64,000 nt of DNA. Source: Psychroflexus longus (GTDB taxonomy: Bacteria > Bacteroidota > Bacteroidia > Flavobacteriales > Flavobacteriaceae). The stretch is from NCBI RefSeq assembly GCF_020164595.1, contig NZ_JAIQZE010000014.1:1-64000 (forward strand), given 5' to 3'. The translations under genes were made by a program, and so were the position numbers. Positions 16,087 to 24,146 of the stretch are shown piece by piece. Positions within the stretch are counted from its first letter, which is position 1. Every line of letters starts with the position of its first letter. Under the pieces are notes generated by a model that saw only the letters and a list, made by a program, of their open reading frames with translations, had not been told where the DNA came from and made no database searches.

Positions 16087-18615
16087 TTAAAATTGAATTG
16101 AAATAAAAGCATTGGGCGTCAACTCAAGGCTTTTGATTCTAACATTCTCTACAGACGTATTGGAGTCGGCTAGTCTAAAAAATTGCTGTGTAAGATTGTT
16201 GCTATTGAACAAATTCAAAATACTAAAACCAGTCTTTATCGAAGAGTTTGAAAGCTGAAACTGATAAGTAGCTGTAAAATTAATTTGAAGATAATCTTCC
16301 AGATTACTTTCATTGGGACTTAAAAAATTAAGCCTTGGATTGGTTTCTGGTGTTAAAATAGGGTTTTCTGAATCTATCTCCGTGGTAGGTCTTCCAGCAA
16401 AATAGCGCCCCCCGAGTGATAACTTCAATTCATCTGTGGTGTAGCTTGTGCCAAAAGCTGAGCTCTGGGTAATTTCAAAATTATTGGCGAATTGCTGAGG
16501 GTTGAAGTTGTTGAAATCATAGGTGTTATCCATCACAGAAAAATTTGCCCAAAAGTTGAAATTATCAATGCGCTTTTGAACTAATACCTCCACTCCAGTT
16601 ACTTCATAATCTCCATTGATCTGTAAAAATTCCAACTGATTTTGAAATCCCTGACTTCCAGATGAAATGCCTTCGACAATTTTGTGATATAAACTACCCT
16701 GCAATAACCAGCCTTTTTTATTAAAATTGAAACCAGCCTCGATTTGTTGATTGTTTATAATTGGGAAGTTTTCTTCGTCAGCAAGGATCCATCGCCTTTT
16801 CTCTACTCCAAGAAAATCCTGTTGCTGATCGATGACTTGAGTAAGTGTTTGGTTTTTGATCTCCCCAAGCAGATTCCATCGCCAATAGCGGTTGGCTTGA
16901 TAACTAAAATTGAATCTTGGCTCCCACCTCACCTCATCAAAGCCATCGTAATAATTGGCTCTAACTCCTACACGAGCCCTTAATTTTTCGTCTTTGGATG
17001 TATAAGTCAACTCACTAACCCCAGAATGTGTTCTCAGTACATCTTTCGCTCTTAGAATGACCTCTGGAGAAGTTACTTCGTTGTTGTTTCTAACTCCGAC
17101 TTCGCTAAATTGGTATCCATTATTTAGATAAAAACGATCTGAAAGTTGGAAAGAATCCCTAAAACTGAATTTAAGGTCGACAACCTGGTTGGTCTGCAAT
17201 AATTCCTGGCTGGACAACACAGATTGATTAAAGGCTTCAAGCTCGTAAAAGGAAGCATTAAAAGCTATAGAACTGGAGTGCTTATCACTCCAGTCAGTTT
17301 TATAATTGAGGTTGGCTAGGAAATTTCTTTGTTTAAAATCGTTTCGCTTTTGCTCCTGGGTTGTTTCTAAAACTTCATCGAAGGTGAGTTCATTTTGGAT
17401 GGCCAGAACATCAACATTTAATTGATCCCCGGAGTCAAACTCATAATCGTACTGGAGTGACACATCAAAAAACTTTAATTCTTGCTGTGTTGTAATTCTA
17501 TTATTATTGTCCTGAAGCAGATCCTGAATTTCAGTATTTTGGAAGACTTTATCTGTAAATCCATTGTAGGTTGGAGATTCCCAGACATCTGTCAAAGATC
17601 GTCTCAAAGCCACCTGTAGATTAGATTTTCTATTCAGCTCCAGGAAAGCGGAAGCATTAGCGCTTAAAAAATCCAGCTGTAGCTTGTGATTATATTCTTG
17701 AGAGTGCTTCCTTGAAGAAATATCAATGACGGAAGAAACACCTTCATTGTAAAACGCAGAGCTTCCATTTTTGATAACTTTGATTTCATGGTTGATCAAA
17801 GGGTTAATTGCCGAAATCATTCCAAAAAAATGGCCGGTTTGGTACATTCTTGAGCCATTCCAAAGCACAAGATTTTGATCATGTGTTCCGCCTCGAACGT
17901 TTATTTGAGCTATAGTTTCATCGGTATTTACGATTCCTGGAACATATTGCAAACTATGCAAAACATCTGCATTAATCAAACCTGGAAGGACTCCAAATTC
18001 TTGAGGGATTATCTCTAGGCTATTATCGGGATTGAGAGAAATACCTTTGGTGAGGTATTCCTTAATCAATACCTCATCAAGTTCAATTTCCGGAAACAAG
18101 TAGAGCGTTTTGCAGGAGTCTATGTTTTGAATTGAGGATTTCACCCCAGTATCGTAATAGTTGGGATGAGCAAACTGAAGCTCAATGGCATTTATAGATT
18201 CATCGATAAAGATTCTACCCATCGGGTTGGAATAGCCTATAGTTTGATTATCGTAGATAACTTCAACACCAGGTATCGATTTACTCGTTCTGGCATTAAA
18301 AAAACTGAGGCAGTAAACTGTTTTATTGTAATTGACAGAAATGCTACTTCCTGAAATAAAAGTAAATTCTAATGGAAATTGATAACTTATAAAATCTAAA
18401 GCTTCTACAAGAGAATTGGTTCTTGATGGTCTTATCACTTCAGTGTTTACAAAATCTTCGTATAAATAGTTAAAGTTAACCGAATAGTCCTCTTCAAATT
18501 CATTGAGCAATACAATAAGCTCAATCTTTTCTTGAGATTGAGCTTGTACGTTGTAGCTAATTAAAATCAGAATAACTACAAAAAAAGAGTTGAGCCTAAA
18601 TTTATTCTTGATCAT
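16087..18615 (-). CDS. TonB-dependent receptor with N-terminal STN signalling domain (FecA-like)
   Basis: Outer-membrane transporter/signal transducer, 842 residues. Order of parts: signal peptide to about residue 26 (ending NVQAQ), a secretin/TonB short N-terminal domain (about 27-100), a carboxypeptidase-like regulatory domain (about 105-185), the plug (about 195-320, with INVRGGTHDQNLVLWNG) and a 22-strand barrel ending AFISIQF, whose terminal Phe is typical of barrel proteins. The STN domain is what lets FecA-type receptors talk to a FecR anti-sigma factor. Its ATG overlaps the fecR 3' end by 14 bp, so the two are translated together. A TTG at 18624 is an alternative start. The ligand is unknown; no SusD partner is present. 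Confidence 0.92.
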   Translation of the reverse strand: MIKNKFRLNSFFVVILILISYNVQAQSQEKIELIVLLNEFEEDYSVNFNYLYEDFVNTEVIRPSRTNSLVEALDFISYQFPLEFTFISGSSISVNYNKTVYCLSFFNARTSKSIPGVEVIYDNQTIGYSNPMGRIFIDESINAIELQFAHPNYYDTGVKSSIQNIDSCKTLYLFPEIELDEVLIKEYLTKGISLNPDNSLEIIPQEFGVLPGLINADVLHSLQYVPGIVNTDETIAQINVRGGTHDQNLVLWNGSRMYQTGHFFGMISAINPLINHEIKVIKNGSSAFYNEGVSSVIDISSRKHSQEYNHKLQLDFLSANASAFLELNRKSNLQVALRRSLTDVWESPTYNGFTDKVFQNTEIQDLLQDNNNRITTQQELKFFDVSLQYDYEFDSGDQLNVDVLAIQNELTFDEVLETTQEQKRNDFKQRNFLANLNYKTDWSDKHSSSIAFNASFYELEAFNQSVLSSQELLQTNQVVDLKFSFRDSFQLSDRFYLNNGYQFSEVGVRNNNEVTSPEVILRAKDVLRTHSGVSELTYTSKDEKLRARVGVRANYYDGFDEVRWEPRFNFSYQANRYWRWNLLGEIKNQTLTQVIDQQQDFLGVEKRRWILADEENFPIINNQQIEAGFNFNKKGWLLQGSLYHKIVEGISSGSQGFQNQLEFLQINGDYEVTGVEVLVQKRIDNFNFWANFSVMDNTYDFNNFNPQQFANNFEITQSSAFGTSYTTDELKLSLGGRYFAGRPTTEIDSENPILTPETNPRLNFLSPNESNLEDYLQINFTATYQFQLSNSSIKTGFSILNLFNSNNLTQQFFRLADSNTSVENVRIKSLELTPNAFISIQF

Positions 18616-19486
18616 TATCAACAAAAATAAATTTATTTTCGTTGATGACTGAGAAATTCATTTGATAAGTTTTACTCAAAATGTCTAAAGCAAGAGACAA
18701 ACTATCTGAAGGCAATGTGCCTGAAAATCTTTTATCTTCAGAAACTTGAGTTATATCGACTTCAATTTGATAATCTTGTTCAAGCTGTTGCATGACTTCA
18801 GAGAGACTTACACCTTTAAACTGATGAGTTTTTGAGATCCATTCTGGTTTTTCATTGTAAATATTGCTCTGCTCCAGTTTAATTCCGTTTTGATAGGTGA
18901 TGAATTGACCTTTCTTGAGAATGTTATCTTCATCCTTGAAAGTCACTTTCACAGAACCTTCATAGCAAACCACTTTAAAAATCGAATCTCTAGATTTTAC
19001 ATCAAATCGAGTTCCTAATACCTTTACTTTTCCAAAGTTAGTTTTTACAGTAAATGTTTTTCCTTTAGCAACTTCAAAGTAGGCTTGTCCGTTGAGTTTG
19101 GTTGTTCTGTCAAAATTCCAGAACCAATTATTAAACTGAAACTTACTGTTTTGAGCTAAAATAACCTTTGAATCATCTGGCAATAAGACGGTTTCTTGTG
19201 AATTGATTTGTGAGGTGAAATCTTTGACCGATAAAATAAAGACAAGGGAAGAAATCCCTAAAATGATTAAAATAGAAGCGGCAATAGACCAATTGAATTT
19301 TTTCTTTTTGGTTGTTCTTGTACTTTTTAAATTTTCAAGTACTTTATCTTTATTGAATTCTGGCTTTTCTAATTGTCTCGAATAATGTTTAATTTTCTTC
19401 AGGGTATCAAGCCCACTCACATCTTCTATGGACTGATCTTCTATTTTATTATCAAGCCAGTGGGCTAAATTGTATTTTTTTTTCAT
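18602..19486 (-). CDS. FecR-family anti-sigma factor
   Basis: A 294-residue single-pass inner-membrane protein. The N-terminal cytoplasmic part (1-65) would hold the ECF sigma factor, the transmembrane helix is about 66-87 (WSIAASILIILGISSLVFILSV region), and the periplasmic FecR domain (about 95-200) shows TVLLPDDSKVILAQNSKF and TKLNGQAYFEVAKG. A C-terminal domain (220-294, VSLSEVMQQLEQDYQIEVDI) resembles the STN-like module that contacts the receptor. It lies between the sigma and receptor genes, 43 bp after the former. It has its own copy of the 29-bp promoter element, which overlaps the sigma stop. Confidence 0.92.
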   Translation of the reverse strand: MKKKYNLAHWLDNKIEDQSIEDVSGLDTLKKIKHYSRQLEKPEFNKDKVLENLKSTRTTKKKKFNWSIAASILIILGISSLVFILSVKDFTSQINSQETVLLPDDSKVILAQNSKFQFNNWFWNFDRTTKLNGQAYFEVAKGKTFTVKTNFGKVKVLGTRFDVKSRDSIFKVVCYEGSVKVTFKDEDNILKKGQFITYQNGIKLEQSNIYNEKPEWISKTHQFKGVSLSEVMQQLEQDYQIEVDITQVSEDKRFSGTLPSDSLSLALDILSKTYQMNFSVINENKFIFVDNDQE

Positions 19487-19504: not shown

Positions 19505-19533
19505 TAAAACACCTCAATTGACTCTTACCCTAC
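19505..19533 (-). promoter_or_regulatory. Shared 29-bp ECF-type promoter element, copy upstream of fecR
   Basis: Minus strand GTAGGGTAA (19533-19525), 12 bp, GTGTTTTA (19512-19505), then 18 bp to the fecR ATG. It differs from the other four copies at the first base of each box. It overlaps the sigma-factor stop codon. Confidence 0.5.
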
Positions 19534-20051
19534 TTAAAGGCTTCAATTTTTTCTCTAAGGCTTTCAAGAGCCTTCTGCATTCTCTTCTCAACTGCCTTTA
19601 CACTTATGTTCAATATCTCGGCAATTTCCTTGTAAGATTTTTCATCGATACGGTGAAGTAAAAAGGCCGTTCGTTGTTTTTCCGATAGATCTTGAATGGC
19701 CTTCTCTAGTTTGACTTTAAACTCCTCTTCCTCCATTTTATAGTCTGGACTTTGCATATCCTCTGTTTGTTGAGGAACAGTCTTGGCATACTTCAACACG
19801 ACTTTTTTATGCTTATATCTATTTAACGACAAGTTATTGACAACAGTGTATAGATAAGATTTAGCCTTTGCAAAGGGTACTTTTTTACAATTTTCCCATA
19901 ACTTGATAAACGCCTCTTGCACAGATTCTTCAGCCATTTCCTGGTTGCCGAATTTGTAATAAAAATAATTATTTATGACCTCGGAGTAAGTGTTATAAAC
20001 ACGTTCATATACTTTTTCTTCGCAGACATTGTCAACTAGATTTTTTTCCAT
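19530..20051 (-). CDS. ECF-type RNA polymerase sigma factor (FecI-like)
   Basis: A 173-residue extracytoplasmic-function sigma factor with only regions 2 and 4. Region 2 (about 15-85) includes NYFYYKFGNQEMAEESVQEAFIKLWE, and region 4 (about 115-165) includes LSEKQRTAFLLHRIDEKSYKEIAEILNISVKAVEKRM, the helix-turn-helix that reads the -35 element. It is upstream of fecR and the STN receptor, the standard order for cell-surface signalling. A 29-bp element precedes it in the same arrangement as in front of three lipoprotein genes and fecR, which suggests it recognises that element and activates itself. Confidence 0.93.
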   Translation of the reverse strand: MEKNLVDNVCEEKVYERVYNTYSEVINNYFYYKFGNQEMAEESVQEAFIKLWENCKKVPFAKAKSYLYTVVNNLSLNRYKHKKVVLKYAKTVPQQTEDMQSPDYKMEEEEFKVKLEKAIQDLSEKQRTAFLLHRIDEKSYKEIAEILNISVKAVEKRMQKALESLREKIEAFK

Positions 20052-20081
20052 GGGCTAAATATGCAATACTCTGTACAGTAA

Positions 20082-20110
20082 TAAAACAATTTAATATAAT
20101 TTTACCCTAA
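20082..20110 (-). promoter_or_regulatory. Shared 29-bp ECF-type promoter element, copy upstream of the sigma gene
   Basis: Minus strand TTAGGGTAA (20110-20102), 12 bp, TTGTTTTA (20089-20082), 30 bp before the sigma ATG. It is back to back with the plus-strand copy, and the two TTAGGGTAA boxes form an 11-bp inverted repeat with 7-bp spacer (20100-20128). Confidence 0.65.
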
Positions 20111-20117
20111 AACATAC

Positions 20118-20146
20118 TTAGGGTAAAATGAATCTTATTTGTTGTA
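20118..20146 (+). promoter_or_regulatory. Shared 29-bp ECF-type promoter element, copy upstream of the 345-residue lipoprotein
   Basis: TTAGGGTAA (20118-20126), 12 bp, TTGTTGTA (20139-20146), 29 bp before the ATG at 20176. It is the divergent partner of the sigma-gene copy. Confidence 0.65.
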
Positions 20147-20175
20147 TATAAAAGGGTTTTATAAATTTACAAACA

Positions 20176-21213
20176 ATGAAGCAACTTTATTTCATTTTGA
20201 TAATAGTTCTACTTGCTAGTTGCCAGGATGAAGAGTTTTTTGAACAAGTTGAAGACACTACTAGTTTATCCAGCCAAAGTGAATTGAGCAATCTTATTTC
20301 AAGACTTACGCAAAACCCTACAGCTTTTGATGATTTTATAGACAACTCAAGCAGTATACAAATCGAATTCCCTTACGAAGTAAAAGTCAATTCTGAAACG
20401 ACCTACACCCTCAATGAATTTTCGGATTACCAACCTCTTATTCAGGAATTACCACCTCAATCTGAAGATTATACCATAAATATAAACTTTCCCGTAAACG
20501 TTTCACTTCCGAATTATGAAGTGCTTACAATTCAAAATCAAGCTGAGTTTTTAGCATTAGATGCTAGTGTAGAGGGAAGTTCAGAAATTAATTGCTTGGA
20601 GTATAATTTCCCGATTGATATTAATAGTTTTGATGTTGATAATGGAATTACTAACAGGAGAACCATACAAAATAAAGCCCAACTTTATAATCTAATTCAG
20701 GATTTAAAGCAAAATAACGGGTTTTATCAATTCATTTATCCTATAACGGTAACTGTTGAGGGGCAGGCTCAATCTTTGTCTTCCAATTTAGACTTAAATT
20801 CCACAATAGATAACCTCGATGAAGACTGCTTTAATCCTTCGTTACTGACTAATAATTCCTACAGAATGGAACAGTTCATTGCCTTTATTACATCAAACCA
20901 ATTTGGAGTTTTAAACTTTATAGATGAGGGGCAGAATAAAACTCTTGATTACGAAAACTATAGATTTACTTTCAATACGGATGCTAACATTTTTGTTAAA
21001 AACCTTATTAGTGGAGAAACTTTCTCTGGCGATTGGTCAGCAGAAATTAATGATGACAACCTTAATCTGGACTTGGATTTTGAAGAAAATGATATTTTAG
21101 AAGAACTCGAGGAGGATTGGATTGTAGAAGGTTTTGCGAATCCAAACAGAATTATTCTAAACGATGAAAACAACCTAAGTGAAAACAGCATTTTAATTTT
21201 CGAAAAGATATAG
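20176..21213 (+). CDS. Repeat-containing hypothetical lipoprotein of the ECF locus
   Basis: A 345-residue lipoprotein (signal with lipobox LLASC, Cys16). Four related beta units follow, near 61-92, 101-128, 141-177 and 184-214. Each begins with a strand such as IEFPYEVKV, INFPVNVSL, YNFPIDINS or FIYPITVTV, and the first three end with a polar-helix segment such as NKAQLYNLIQDL. The acidic C-terminal part (about 230-345) has TFNTDANIFVKNL, GDWSAEIND and FEENDILEELEEDW, which I read as a separate beta-rich, possibly lipocalin-like domain. No function is recognised. It is transcribed divergently from the ECF sigma gene through a shared palindromic promoter region and is probably a regulon output or ligand-capture protein. 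Confidence 0.75.
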   Translation: MKQLYFILIIVLLASCQDEEFFEQVEDTTSLSSQSELSNLISRLTQNPTAFDDFIDNSSSIQIEFPYEVKVNSETTYTLNEFSDYQPLIQELPPQSEDYTININFPVNVSLPNYEVLTIQNQAEFLALDASVEGSSEINCLEYNFPIDINSFDVDNGITNRRTIQNKAQLYNLIQDLKQNNGFYQFIYPITVTVEGQAQSLSSNLDLNSTIDNLDEDCFNPSLLTNNSYRMEQFIAFITSNQFGVLNFIDEGQNKTLDYENYRFTFNTDANIFVKNLISGETFSGDWSAEINDDNLNLDLDFEENDILEELEEDWIVEGFANPNRIILNDENNLSENSILIFEKI

Positions 21214-21225
21214 ACCTCAGCTTTT

Positions 21226-21456
21226 ATGGATAATCAGAAACCAACTCAACACGACCTCAAATCAAAGTTAAAAACCTTAAACGTCATTTTTTATATCATT
21301 TTTATTATATGGCTTGTTTGCATTGGCTTTATCATTTCAAAACTGATAACAGGAAATGAAACCACTTCCCTATTCATTGGCACAATACCAATTGTCGCCA
21401 TACTTATCGTCTTAAGCCAAATAAAGTCTAAAATTAAAAAAGAGATAGTTTCTTGA
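21226..21456 (+). CDS. Small two-helix membrane protein
   Basis: A 76-residue protein with a charged N-terminus (DNQKPTQHDLKSKLK), a first transmembrane helix at about 18-40 (VIFYIIFIIWLVCIGFII), a short loop with TGNETTS, a second helix at about 49-65 (FIGTIPIVAILIVL) and a Lys-rich tail. Similar small two-helix proteins are common in Flavobacteriaceae and are of unknown function. It starts 12 bp after the lipoprotein stop, so it is probably co-transcribed from the ECF-type promoter at 20118. Confidence 0.65.
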   Translation: MDNQKPTQHDLKSKLKTLNVIFYIIFIIWLVCIGFIISKLITGNETTSLFIGTIPIVAILIVLSQIKSKIKKEIVS

Positions 21457-21801
21457 GTGTAATATAATTCTACAACCAAAACAAAAAATAACATAATTTT
21501 TAAGTTTCTATCTAATTCAACCTCGCATAAATTTCATATTATACCAAGATAAATAAGACCTCTTTTTCTACATCTTTGTATGAATACAAGCATTCTCCTT
21601 AGACGGATTCATTAATTTTTATAGCTTTTACTTAGCGGATTTCAAAGTATTTATAGGAAAATCATTACCGAATAAGATAGATAGTATAAGCTATTTCCTT
21701 TTAACTTATTAAAAAAGAATCGGCATTATTTCTATTTTCTAATCAGATAATCTTTGAATTAGTAATGCAATATTAAAAGCATTTTGAGTGGTATGAAATG
21801 C
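21457..21801. other. AT-rich noncoding stretch with small hairpins
   Basis: No gene is supported here. Small inverted repeats occur near its right end: AAGCATTT/AAATGCTT (21777-21803) and AATGC/GCATT just before. The 12-mer AATACAAGCATT near 21584 matches, inverted, the AATGCTTGTAT at 21797-21807, so the whole stretch may be older, decayed mobile sequence flanking the foldback element to the right. Confidence 0.5.
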
Positions 21802-22089
21802 TTGTATAATTAACCCGATTTATGCATTAAAAGGTGAAGCATGAGCCGAATTAATGCATTAGTCGGGTTTAACCTCCGAATAACACAAATTAAATTATCA
21901 TAATTTTAATTTGTAGTTATTCGAGAGTCCTCGATCTAATTTTTAATTCAATTATTGAATTAAAATAGAATCGGGACCCGAGTTAGAAAATCACCATTTT
22001 GGTTTTTGCAAAAACATCGTAATGGTAGAGTTTTCTTATTCGTTTATGCATTAGAAAGTTTTCTAAGGCATAATTTGGGTTTAATACAA
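21802..22089. repeat. MITE-like multi-hairpin foldback element (288 bp)
   Basis: The outer ends match as imperfect terminal inverted repeats: TTGTATAATTAACCCGATTT at the left and, read inverted from the right, TTGTATTAAACCCAAATTAT. Inside are consecutive hairpins: 21810-21830 with 21851-21872, 21877-21897 with 21901-21923, 21925-21952 with 21954-21980, 21986-22008 with 22009-22035, and 22044-22058 with 22059-22073. No open reading frame is present. The layout fits a nonautonomous mobile element or a structured RNA; no matching transposase is in the window. Confidence 0.6.
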
Positions 22090-22122
22090 AAAAGAGGCTG
22101 CTTTTTAGCAACCTCTTTTTTA
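22088..22122 (-). terminator. Intrinsic terminator of the DUF4382 gene
   Basis: Stem AAAAAGAGG..TGC/GCA.CCTCTTTTT with one internal mismatch, T-rich when read on the minus strand, 25 bp after the DUF4382 stop. Confidence 0.75.
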
Positions 22123-22146
22123 ATTTAATAGCTACGATTGATTTTA

Positions 22147-22932
22147 TTATTCAAAAACAACGGTTTCTATAGCGGTTGTACTTCCTGTTTCCACTACAAC
22201 ATTTTCTACAATAACAGCTGAGAAACCCGATTCAACTTCTGGCTCAACCACTACAGTATACGTTCCTTCTGGAACACCGTAAAGGAGAAATGCACCAGAA
22301 GTATTATCTGTGTGTGCAGAAACTTGTACTGTATCATCTGCGCTATTTGTTGCTGTCACTAAAGCATCAATTTCTGAAGGCGAAACAATTCCTGAGATAG
22401 CTCCACTTTCTGCTGTAGTAGTGATTTGAATAACTGGCTTAAGGATATGTCCAGAATTTCCTAACTCTACAATAGACTTATCAACATTGAAATCCATAAT
22501 AAACTCGTAAGAAACACCAGGTTGCAGATCATAATTTATATTCAGTTTTAAACCTGACTGTTGAGCGCTTGGTGTTTTTAAGCTAACTTCTTGTCCACCA
22601 TTAAGAACTAAACTGTTCTCTGAACCTAAAATAAGTCTCATTTGGCTTAATTCACCTGAAGAAATTTCTTCATTAACTAAATTTACAAATTCTCCTCCCG
22701 TAAGAGTAAGTAAGTCATAAACTCCAGCATTGGAGTCGAGAACTACAATTTCTCCATCAACAATTGCTTCTACACCCACTACATCTATGAATACTTTTTC
22801 ATAATCACCAGGAGCGTCAACAAGACGAACTGATATACTGGAGGTTCCTTCTGATTCGTTGTCTGAGTTACAACTGATAAATGTGGCACTGGCTACAGCT
22901 ACACATAAAAATAATTTAAATAAACTTTTCAT
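22147..22932 (-). CDS. DUF4382 lipoprotein
   Basis: A 261-residue lipoprotein (signal with TFISC, Cys21). Residues about 30-165 form a DUF4382 domain: ISVRLVDAPGDYEKVFIDV, GVYDLLTLTGG and the long YEFIMDFNVDKSIVELGNSG strand. A C-terminal carboxypeptidase-like beta domain (about 175-261) has the segments GAISGIVSPSEI and YGVPEGTYTVVVEPE. Function is unknown; the family is exported. It stands alone between terminators, with a 29-bp ECF-type element 41 bp upstream, identical in spacing to those before the sigma gene and two other lipoprotein genes, so it is a likely member of that regulon. Confidence 0.85.
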   Translation of the reverse strand: MKSLFKLFLCVAVASATFISCNSDNESEGTSSISVRLVDAPGDYEKVFIDVVGVEAIVDGEIVVLDSNAGVYDLLTLTGGEFVNLVNEEISSGELSQMRLILGSENSLVLNGGQEVSLKTPSAQQSGLKLNINYDLQPGVSYEFIMDFNVDKSIVELGNSGHILKPVIQITTTAESGAISGIVSPSEIDALVTATNSADDTVQVSAHTDNTSGAFLLYGVPEGTYTVVVEPEVESGFSAVIVENVVVETGSTTAIETVVFE

Positions 22933-22973
22933 ATCTTTTTGTTTTGGGGTTTAATATTTAATGCCCTTTATAC

Positions 22974-23002
22974 TTAAACAATCTTGATTCAAATTACCCT
23001 AA
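22974..23002 (-). promoter_or_regulatory. Shared 29-bp ECF-type promoter element, copy upstream of the DUF4382 gene
   Basis: Minus strand TTAGGGTAA (23002-22994), 12 bp, TTGTTTAA (22981-22974), 41 bp before the ATG at 22932. Confidence 0.65.
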
Positions 23003-23061
23003 CCCAATTCCAAAATATTTCAACCATTTATTGAGATAGTAACAAAGAGTTAGAAGATAAA

Positions 23062-23091
23062 AAATCCCTGCCGCACTAGCGATAGGGATTT
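23062..23091 (-). terminator. Intrinsic terminator of the acidic lipoprotein gene
   Basis: AAATCCCT/AGGGATTT stem with a T-run in the minus direction, 23 bp after the stop at 23115. Confidence 0.75.
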
Positions 23092-23114
23092 CTAATAATG
23101 AGTCCTAAACTTAA

Positions 23115-24092
23115 TTAGTCATCTAAAAGATCAACATAAGCTTTAATAGCATTTTTAATTTGATTAGCCAATTGATTGTTACCATCCTCATCTTCTGGAC
23201 TAATTTCAATGGTTCCATTTCCATTAGCATCGGTAGCGTTGGAAATATCTACCAAGTTAAAAACAGATACTAAGTCAAATTCAAAGACCACTGTGTTATT
23301 ATTATCTTGTGTAATGATTAGATTTTGATTTGCATCTTCGTCATCTACTTCAAAATCTTCACTGAAAGTGTGGTAAAATTCGAAAGGTGTTCCTGAAATA
23401 GTTCCTCTCATTAAGATAGATTTTTGATACAAATCGCTGGAAGGATTACTACTTCTATCCATTTCAAACTCAACTTCATCATACTCACCTACTGGAATTT
23501 CAACACTTACTACTGTTACCTCTCCTGAACTTAGGTTAAGTTCAAATGGACCTCTGAGTTCAAATTCATCATCAAAATCGAATCTGTCATCGTCATTGTC
23601 GTCATCAATCTCACAACCCTCGTCATCTGGATCTATAGCGTAAACGCTAAAGTCTGCTTTAAAGTAAATCTCGGTTCCACTCTGTAGTTCAATTTCATAT
23701 CTATAAGGGTCTTCATCTTCATCCTCCAACTCCCCTTTACAAAAAGGATCGTTTGGATAATTTTCATCAAGATAAGCTGCAATTTCATTTGGTAATTCAT
23801 CAAAACTTAAGTCATCTTCATCACCTTCTGAGTTGCCTGAAGAACTGTCTGGTATACCAAAACCTTCCGCAAATTCAAATTCAATATTTTTGATATTGAT
23901 TAAAAATTCTGAAACTTCAACATCTGAAACTGATTTAGCTTCCCTTGAACTACTAGCATCACTAGATGCCTTTGCTTTGATTTCGAGATTAGATTTTTCT
24001 ACATTTGCCAGATTTGATTCTGAATCATCTGGTGTACAGGAAAATAGCAATGCTATTCCTAAAATTCCTGCTATTGGTTTTAAAATTTTCAT
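23115..24092 (-). CDS. Acidic hypothetical lipoprotein of the ECF locus
   Basis: A 325-residue lipoprotein (signal with LLFSC, Cys19) of extreme acidity, with Asp/Glu runs near residues 90-97, 122-128 and 160-175 (for example CEIDDDNDDDRFDFDDEFEL). The order of strands, including VSEFLINIKNIEFEF near 60 and VTVVSVEIPVGEYDEVEFEM near 190, recalls the DUF4382 layout, but I cannot assign the family firmly. The acidic loops might bind divalent cations. It ends with an acidic helix (QLANQIKNAIKAYVDLLDD). The 29-bp ECF-type element lies 25 bp upstream, just after the DUF5686 stop. Confidence 0.75.
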   Translation of the reverse strand: MKILKPIAGILGIALLFSCTPDDSESNLANVEKSNLEIKAKASSDASSSREAKSVSDVEVSEFLINIKNIEFEFAEGFGIPDSSSGNSEGDEDDLSFDELPNEIAAYLDENYPNDPFCKGELEDEDEDPYRYEIELQSGTEIYFKADFSVYAIDPDDEGCEIDDDNDDDRFDFDDEFELRGPFELNLSSGEVTVVSVEIPVGEYDEVEFEMDRSSNPSSDLYQKSILMRGTISGTPFEFYHTFSEDFEVDDEDANQNLIITQDNNNTVVFEFDLVSVFNLVDISNATDANGNGTIEISPEDEDGNNQLANQIKNAIKAYVDLLDD

Positions 24093-24117
24093 GGTGTAAT
24101 TGTTTTATATTCAACTA

Positions 24118-24146
24118 TAAAACAACTCAAAGAAAATTTACCCTAA
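24118..24146 (-). promoter_or_regulatory. Shared 29-bp ECF-type promoter element, copy upstream of the acidic lipoprotein
   Basis: Minus strand TTAGGGTAA (24146-24138), 12 bp, TTGTTTTA (24125-24118), 25 bp before the ATG at 24092. It lies in the 62-bp gap after the DUF5686 gene. Confidence 0.65.

Follow-up and report, generated by a model that had tools for sequence, protein, structure and literature searches.

Several described systems built on extracytoplasmic function (ECF) sigma factors offer comparisons for the locus considered here, a group of sigma, anti-sigma, receptor and lipoprotein genes in a 64,000-nucleotide stretch of DNA from Psychroflexus longus (the window, meaning the whole stretch at its full length), in which five genes are each preceded by a copy of one 29-bp element. 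The papers cited are drawn on in excerpt, and comparisons with them, positive or negative, extend as far as those excerpts. In Escherichia coli, the ferric citrate sigma factor directs the fecA promoter and fecIR is not autoregulated (PMC9249621). In the heme system of Serratia, HasI activates hasS, and hasI is not autoregulated (PMC9249621). For ECF sigma factors of Bacteroides, a non-canonical promoter with TGTT at about -10 is reported (PMC12596196), and a possible sigma-type start has been mapped inside the preceding gene (PMC11501099). In Flavobacterium psychrophilum, the SM6 ECF promoters have a CGT box at -10 and type IX secretion system (T9SS) targets, with a sigma/anti-sigma pair among the targets (PMC9723704).

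The P. longus locus resembles E. coli FecI/FecR/FecA in its domains and in its set of sigma factor, FecR and TonB-dependent receptor, the signal route being presumed here. Unlike the E. coli system, sigma and fecR each have an element of their own, and the other targets are lipoproteins. As in HasI/HasS/HasR, where this was demonstrated experimentally, the anti-sigma gene (here fecR) would be activated by its sigma factor, and the wiring of a sister group, clade B, is of the same kind; unlike Has, the group containing the window (clade A) adds apparent sigma autoregulation, the -35 sequence differs and no hemophore genes were seen. The likeness to the Bacteroides ECF sigma/anti-sigma pairs lies in the -10 box, TGTT at about -10, and in a possible start placed within the gene in front, whereas their targets are polysaccharide-utilisation enzymes and those here are lipoproteins. 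With SM6 the locus shares a flavobacterial ECF promoter class in which a sigma/anti-sigma pair is a target, but TGTT and lipoproteins replace CGT and T9SS.

The element is very probably the -35/-10 promoter (TAGGGTAA / TTGTTTTA) read by the FecI-type (TIGR02985) ECF sigma factor of the same locus. An earlier note on this DNA had proposed a promoter through which the local sigma factor controls itself, fecR and lipoprotein genes, and this proposal is supported by footprints in orthologous loci, by divergence of the -35 box in parallel with the sigma clade, by an acidic-lipoprotein gene that keeps its element when distant, and by pattern-only searches. When the 64-kb window was scanned for KTAGGGTAA-N12-KTGTTKWA at up to two mismatches, five matches were found, all with zero mismatches, and no sixth copy; dinucleotide shuffles of the window gave a mean of 0.28 sites at the same tolerance, and none of 100 reached five. 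Element 1 (19505-19533, minus strand) overlaps the 3' end of the sigma gene and is the predicted fecR promoter, 18 bp from the ATG. Element 2 (20082-20110, minus strand), the predicted promoter of the sigma gene, lies 30 bp from its ATG, and back to back with it stands element 3 (20118-20146, plus strand), predicted to serve the gene of a 345-aa lipoprotein at a distance of 29 bp; the TAGG boxes of this pair are 9 bp apart. Elements 4 (22974-23002) and 5 (24118-24146), both on the minus strand, are the predicted promoters of a DUF4382 lipoprotein gene (41 bp to the ATG) and an acidic-lipoprotein gene (25 bp). These positions, strands and distances had all been given in the earlier note and were borne out by the scan, as was its remark that no copy lies elsewhere in the window, which is true at up to two mismatches. 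The sequence TTAGGGTAA is the same in four of the five copies, again as described, and the fecR copy has GTAGGGTAA. A scan for the sigma-70 consensus was uninformative (28 found, 37.1 in shuffles), and Rfam gave no match anywhere in the window.

Across the P. longus genome (2.95 Mb, 43 contigs), the five copies of this locus are the only sites with zero mismatches. At up to two mismatches there are 20 sites in all, 15 of them with one or two mismatches, compared with 27 for a reversed control, so no excess exists beyond the locus and a wider regulon at this level was rejected; no weight-matrix search for weaker sites was made. A 1-mismatch site on G000 contig 12, 6 bp ahead of a lipoprotein gene, recurs in G015 but is missing before this gene in each of the five remaining genomes that encode it, and was therefore not counted. 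Perfect sites on G004 contig 1 and G007 contig 9 were likewise rejected as candidates, with two mismatches in G015 and no site at up to two mismatches in G000, G012, G003, G011 or G008.

Relatives of the sigma factor were found in 30 of 60 genomes, P. longus included (E<=1e-15). The clade-A sample comprises 18 orthologous loci from the genus, including the window, and a site was accepted if it lay no more than 160 bp upstream and differed at 3 or fewer of 16 positions. By this measure the element stands before the sigma gene in 16/18 loci, the divergent lipoprotein gene in 17/18, fecR in 11/18 and the acidic-lipoprotein gene in 14/14, and before the DUF4382 gene in both loci that have it nearby. 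Loss of the motif from orthologous loci that keep the genes, which the earlier note had named as a sign against its reading, was thus mostly not seen, fecR being the least constant. Non-targets at the same tolerance gave 1/18 (receptor), 0/9 (DUF2141) and 0/10 (DUF5686), and the reversed pattern never fell below 4 mismatches in 183 upstream regions. The sigma misses are G013, with 7 mismatches, and G020, with 5 at the chosen start codon, where the search with a more neutral core (defined below) places a core site 4 bp away from a start; among the lipoprotein genes, the miss is G010, with 4 mismatches. As an exact pattern, the element occurs at 19 sites outside the own genome in the 60 relatives, against 5 for the control. 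Among 40 relatives searched for the acidic-lipoprotein gene, all 15 genomes in which it accompanies a clade-A sigma factor keep the element, with 0-3 mismatches. It is kept, with 1 mismatch, even where the gene lies away from the sigma locus, about 580 kb apart in G010 and on another contig in G013, and two genomes with the gene and no close sigma relative, G002 and G016, have chance-level matches only (6 and 7 mismatches).

A second sigma clade (B), 43-51% identical and also present in the P. longus genome (contig 1), has loci of the same architecture and spacing with a different -35 box, mostly TAGGAnTT. Across 54 sigma loci, with 458 upstream regions, the neutral core TAGG-N17-TGTYNWA, which leaves position 5 of the -35 box free, matched exactly 91 times, and once when reversed. 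Position 5 was counted at the 82 of these 91 sites that precede named homologues in clades A and B, and it is G at 47/47 clade-A sites and A at 33/35 clade-B sites, the two exceptions with G being lipoprotein sites of G000 and G015. The nine sites left out comprise seven from four loci outside both clades, which all carry G there, plus a single unnamed site per clade, again of the G type. Loci were assigned to clades by a sigma tree of 53 proteins (one short fragment, L123, left out), on which 41 rows could be counted in three site groups; these groups require 5 changes, compared with 17.0 for shuffled labels, and none of 200 shuffles was as low. Residues 158-160 are M (18/18), Q or S (18/18) and K (10/18) in clade A, and I or L, Y (23/23) and T, S, G or V in clade B. 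In one (6in7) of the five listed alignments with solved ECF factors, residues 159-160 lie opposite F-R of a VRSRIFR stretch, and the last R of the corresponding stretch in E. coli sigma-E is presumably R176. The sigma-E residues that read the -35 box include R176, S172 and R171 in the excerpted source (PMC3397946). The -35 type follows the sigma tree, and residues 158-160 align near the -35-reading residues of sigma-E; as the clades are also distinguished by about 20 further residues, residues 158-160 are not shown to be causal for the -35 preference.

The pattern TAGGGTAA-N12-TTGTTTTA alone, searched in 199 genomes of the family, gave 22 sites in 17 genomes other than that of P. longus, and 3 for the control. 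An open reading frame (ORF) of at least 100 aa starts 10-70 bp downstream of 15/22 sites, whereas positions drawn at random from these loci give 446/8,800 (binomial P 4.5e-15); seven sites fail this test, including one that lies 5 bp ahead of fecR. The genes at these sites include fecR, relatives of the 345-aa and acidic lipoproteins, and other lipoproteins or secreted proteins. In the own genome, 3/4 of the 1-mismatch sites are intragenic. All 17 genomes with a family site carry the sigma factor (E<=1e-30), which is only moderate evidence of co-occurrence given a base rate of 137/199. In a bacterial/archaeal collection, 80 stretches, which hold 86 sites, were examined out of at least 116, with assignment to Bacteroidota taken from record titles and one record (L270) in neither group. 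A gene starts 3-70 bp downstream of 36/68 sites labelled Bacteroidota, and 19 of these 36 genes are homologues of the system; a sigma relative lies within 2.5 kb of 26/68. Sites with other labels gave one gene start, one homologue and one sigma relative in 17, all on one contig (L327). This contig, from a metagenome-assembled genome labelled Klebsiella pneumoniae, has the element together with a sigma/FecR/receptor operon like those described here, and is probably a mislabelled Bacteroidota contaminant. Among the matches listed, named records with the exact element are mostly Flavobacteriaceae. Five Flavobacterium records (L257, L283, L287, L302 and L319) each have two exact sites on opposite strands 595-597 bp apart, one before fecR and the other pointing the opposite way, with sigma and lipoprotein relatives nearby. 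F. anhuiense and Flavobacterium sp. Root186 are among the carriers of paired sites.

The two clades also differ in how the sigma gene itself is served. None of the 35 counted exact core sites of clade B precedes a sigma gene, and at 1 mismatch a single sigma-directed site was found there, 125 bp away (L116). Separate fecR sites occur in both clades, clade A having 5 and clade B 18 that match the core exactly. The flavobacterial housekeeping -7 box is given as TAnnTTTG (PMC9723704), and this box is found within 70 bp of 10/23 clade-B sigma genes, nine of them at -12 to -14 (0.7 expected). Because clade B has these boxes and no exact sigma-directed site, sigma autoregulation looks like a clade-A trait, with the fecR site common to both. 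For the self-control of the sigma factor inferred in the earlier note, a site is present in 16/18 loci of clade A, but such control is not general. In the window, no TAnnTTTG lies within 200 bp before any of the five targets, but PPA, DUF2141 and the receptor gene each have one at that range, the last possibly being coding-driven because it lies in the fecR coding end. Across clade A, no box was found within 70 bp before fecR (0/18) or the acidic-lipoprotein gene (0/14).

Homology suggests that a signal from outside, received by the TonB-dependent receptor, would pass through the receptor's N-terminal domain to FecR in the inner membrane, and FecR would release the sigma factor, which with RNA polymerase would start transcription at the five promoters. 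Element 2 would then raise the amount of sigma factor (positive feedback), element 1, at the end of the sigma gene, would raise FecR and receptor (negative feedback), and elements 3, 4 and 5 would yield the three lipoproteins. It is hardly possible, we infer, for two polymerases to occupy both back-to-back sites at once. As a tentative idea, clade A could have turned an anti-sigma-feedback system such as that of clade B into a switch with positive (sigma) and negative (fecR) self-regulation, the sigma factor and main lipoprotein being served by back-to-back promoters; the outcome could be a surface lipoprotein coat with on/off heterogeneity, and the two clades would form a natural series of sigma/-35 co-evolution.

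Several results weigh against a promoter read by the local sigma factor. Sites with one or two mismatches are not in excess across the P. longus genome, and at 3 mismatches a site is missing before fecR in 7/18 and before sigma in 2/18 clade-A loci. Three G-type sites occur in clade-B loci, two of them counted above and one (L092, before a 91-aa ORF) left out. In clade A, TAnnTTTG lies within 70 bp before the 345-aa-type lipoprotein gene in 5/18 loci (1.3 expected) and before the sigma gene in 5/18, at -47 to -69 (1.2 expected), so the lack of a housekeeping box in the window is not general. In the bacterial/archaeal collection, 32/68 Bacteroidota-labelled sites have no fitting gene start. Moreover, every pattern search was cued by the motif of this locus, and the family and bacterial/archaeal collections share species, so their results are not independent. 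Lastly, G019 has a perfect site 30 bp from the ATG of its acidic-lipoprotein gene (L105:8810-9846), while its best sigma match is 30% identical and neither a close sigma relative nor a relative of the 345-aa lipoprotein was found in that genome; this site speaks against an exclusive reading by the local sigma factor, or it is a relic.

The G019 site also lends itself to the strongest alternative, in which the element is an ECF promoter that wholly or partly serves another ECF sigma factor, and the adjacent one is not its main reader. TGTT near -10 is reported for other Bacteroidota ECF promoters (excerpted in PMC12596196), and the paralogue in the own genome, at 50% identity, has a lipoprotein site with G at position 5, as in clade A. 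We nevertheless consider this alternative improbable: the type of site tracks the adjacent sigma factor, the exact sites of the own genome are all at the sigma locus, and two of the three sigma-less genomes with an acidic-lipoprotein gene are at chance level.

It is considerably less likely that the element is the operator of a DNA-binding transcription factor, with the inverted repeat at 20099-20129 as a dimer site. The two back-to-back copies do form an inverted repeat with 12-bp arms around these positions, and with up to 1 mismatch allowed in the core, the 9-bp gap between TAGG boxes is found in 9/18 clade-A loci. The other nine have a gap of 8 bp (one), 3-5 bp (four) or 45 bp (one), or no pair (three), and in the window three of five copies stand alone. 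The element is, moreover, asymmetric, each of the five copies faces a gene whose ATG is 18-41 bp away, and the -35 half varies with the sigma clade. That a segment bearing a promoter was recently duplicated, or that the likeness is due to chance, without shared regulation in either case, is hardly credible even with five copies within 4.7 kb, as the boxes are 93% identical and the 12-bp spacers 39%, so the copies do not look like recent duplicates of one segment, and as the element is retained in orthologues and also at a distance from the locus, and the shuffles described above average 0.28 sites.

Returning to the genes that the predicted sigma promoter would serve, the sigma factor (173 aa; 19530-20051, minus strand) matches Pfam Sigma70_r2 and Sigma70_r4_2 and scores 131.2 bits against NCBIfam TIGR02985 (Sig70_bacteroi1; curated cut-off 126.4), which makes it a member of this Bacteroidetes ECF subfamily. 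The adjoining fecR (18602-19486, minus strand) encodes a 294-aa anti-sigma factor with Pfam FecR (60.7 bits, cut-off 24) and FecR_C (48.1 bits, cut-off 24.4). The TonB-dependent receptor (16087-18624, minus strand; Pfam Plug, 32.6 bits, cut-off 23.9) is without an element of its own, and as its start overlaps the fecR end the gene is probably co-transcribed with fecR. The earlier note had called it an STN receptor. The TonB receptor stands, but Pfam STN has no match in the window protein itself; at the weak threshold of E<=0.1, 30 homologous N-termini gave FecR_C in 22 and STN in 4, and the sole PDB match is the PupA signalling domain at a weak E of 0.049. The N-terminus is probably a domain of FecR_C/STN type, and an STN-type signalling domain is plausible, on a weak case.

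The 345-aa lipoprotein (20176-21213, plus strand) has Cys16 followed as CQDEE and no Pfam family at E<=0.001, and its relatives sit beside many related sigma genes. The 261-aa DUF4382 lipoprotein (22147-22932, minus strand) matches its Pfam family at E 9.1e-29, and the acidic lipoprotein (325 aa; 23115-24092, minus strand) has PepSY_like and DUF4382 matches below cut-off and, read by eye, an EF-hand-like stretch, DANGNGTIEISPED. Signals for surface-exposed lipoproteins have been described as QKDDE, SDDDD and SDDFE (PMC5080379); compared with these excerpted signals, the N-termini CQDEE, CNSDNE and CTPDDSE show a loose resemblance and no exact match. The description of these targets as a lipoprotein export group could not be upheld: the targets appear to be lipoproteins, and neither Pfam nor NCBIfam identifies an export component in the group, the matches being DUF4382, a weak PepSY_like or nothing above cut-off.

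Directly 3' of the 345-aa lipoprotein gene lies a 76-aa ORF with hydrophobic stretches (21226-21456), and several relatives have ORFs of 75-79 aa after the lipoprotein, so this ORF may be expressed from the same transcript as the lipoprotein. The following 690 bp (21457-22146) hold no listed ORF of at least 80 aa and no Rfam match; inverted repeats there have 19-nt arms (21812-21830/21851-21869) and 22-nt arms (22081-22102/22107-22128), the latter terminator-like on reading. Elsewhere, the clade-B locus of G007 encodes near its sigma gene a large lipoprotein (L101:7496-9346) with four fasciclin stretches (Pfam) and, after the receptor, a zinc carboxypeptidase-like gene (Peptidase_M14), and the clade-B locus of the P. 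longus genome encodes lipoproteins with N-termini resembling that of the fasciclin lipoprotein.

FecI/FecR surface signalling is a known kind of system, and what is new here is the promoter model, the co-divergence of clades A and B and the change in wiring; no published description of the element was recognised in a literature search, whose coverage left subscription journals mostly outside. To our knowledge, many ECF sigma factors of the Bacteroidota have no known promoter. They are numerous in this phylum, with 50 in Bacteroides thetaiotaomicron (excerpted in PMC12596196). The element provides a specific promoter model for one sigma group that is found (E<=1e-30) in 137/199 genomes of the family, and as such the putative targets of this group become readable from DNA. 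Two paralogous sigma clades, both represented in the P. longus genome, have -35 boxes whose differences parallel those at a few positions of a putative recognition helix, and between close relatives the wiring appears to have changed through the gain or loss of sigma autoregulation.

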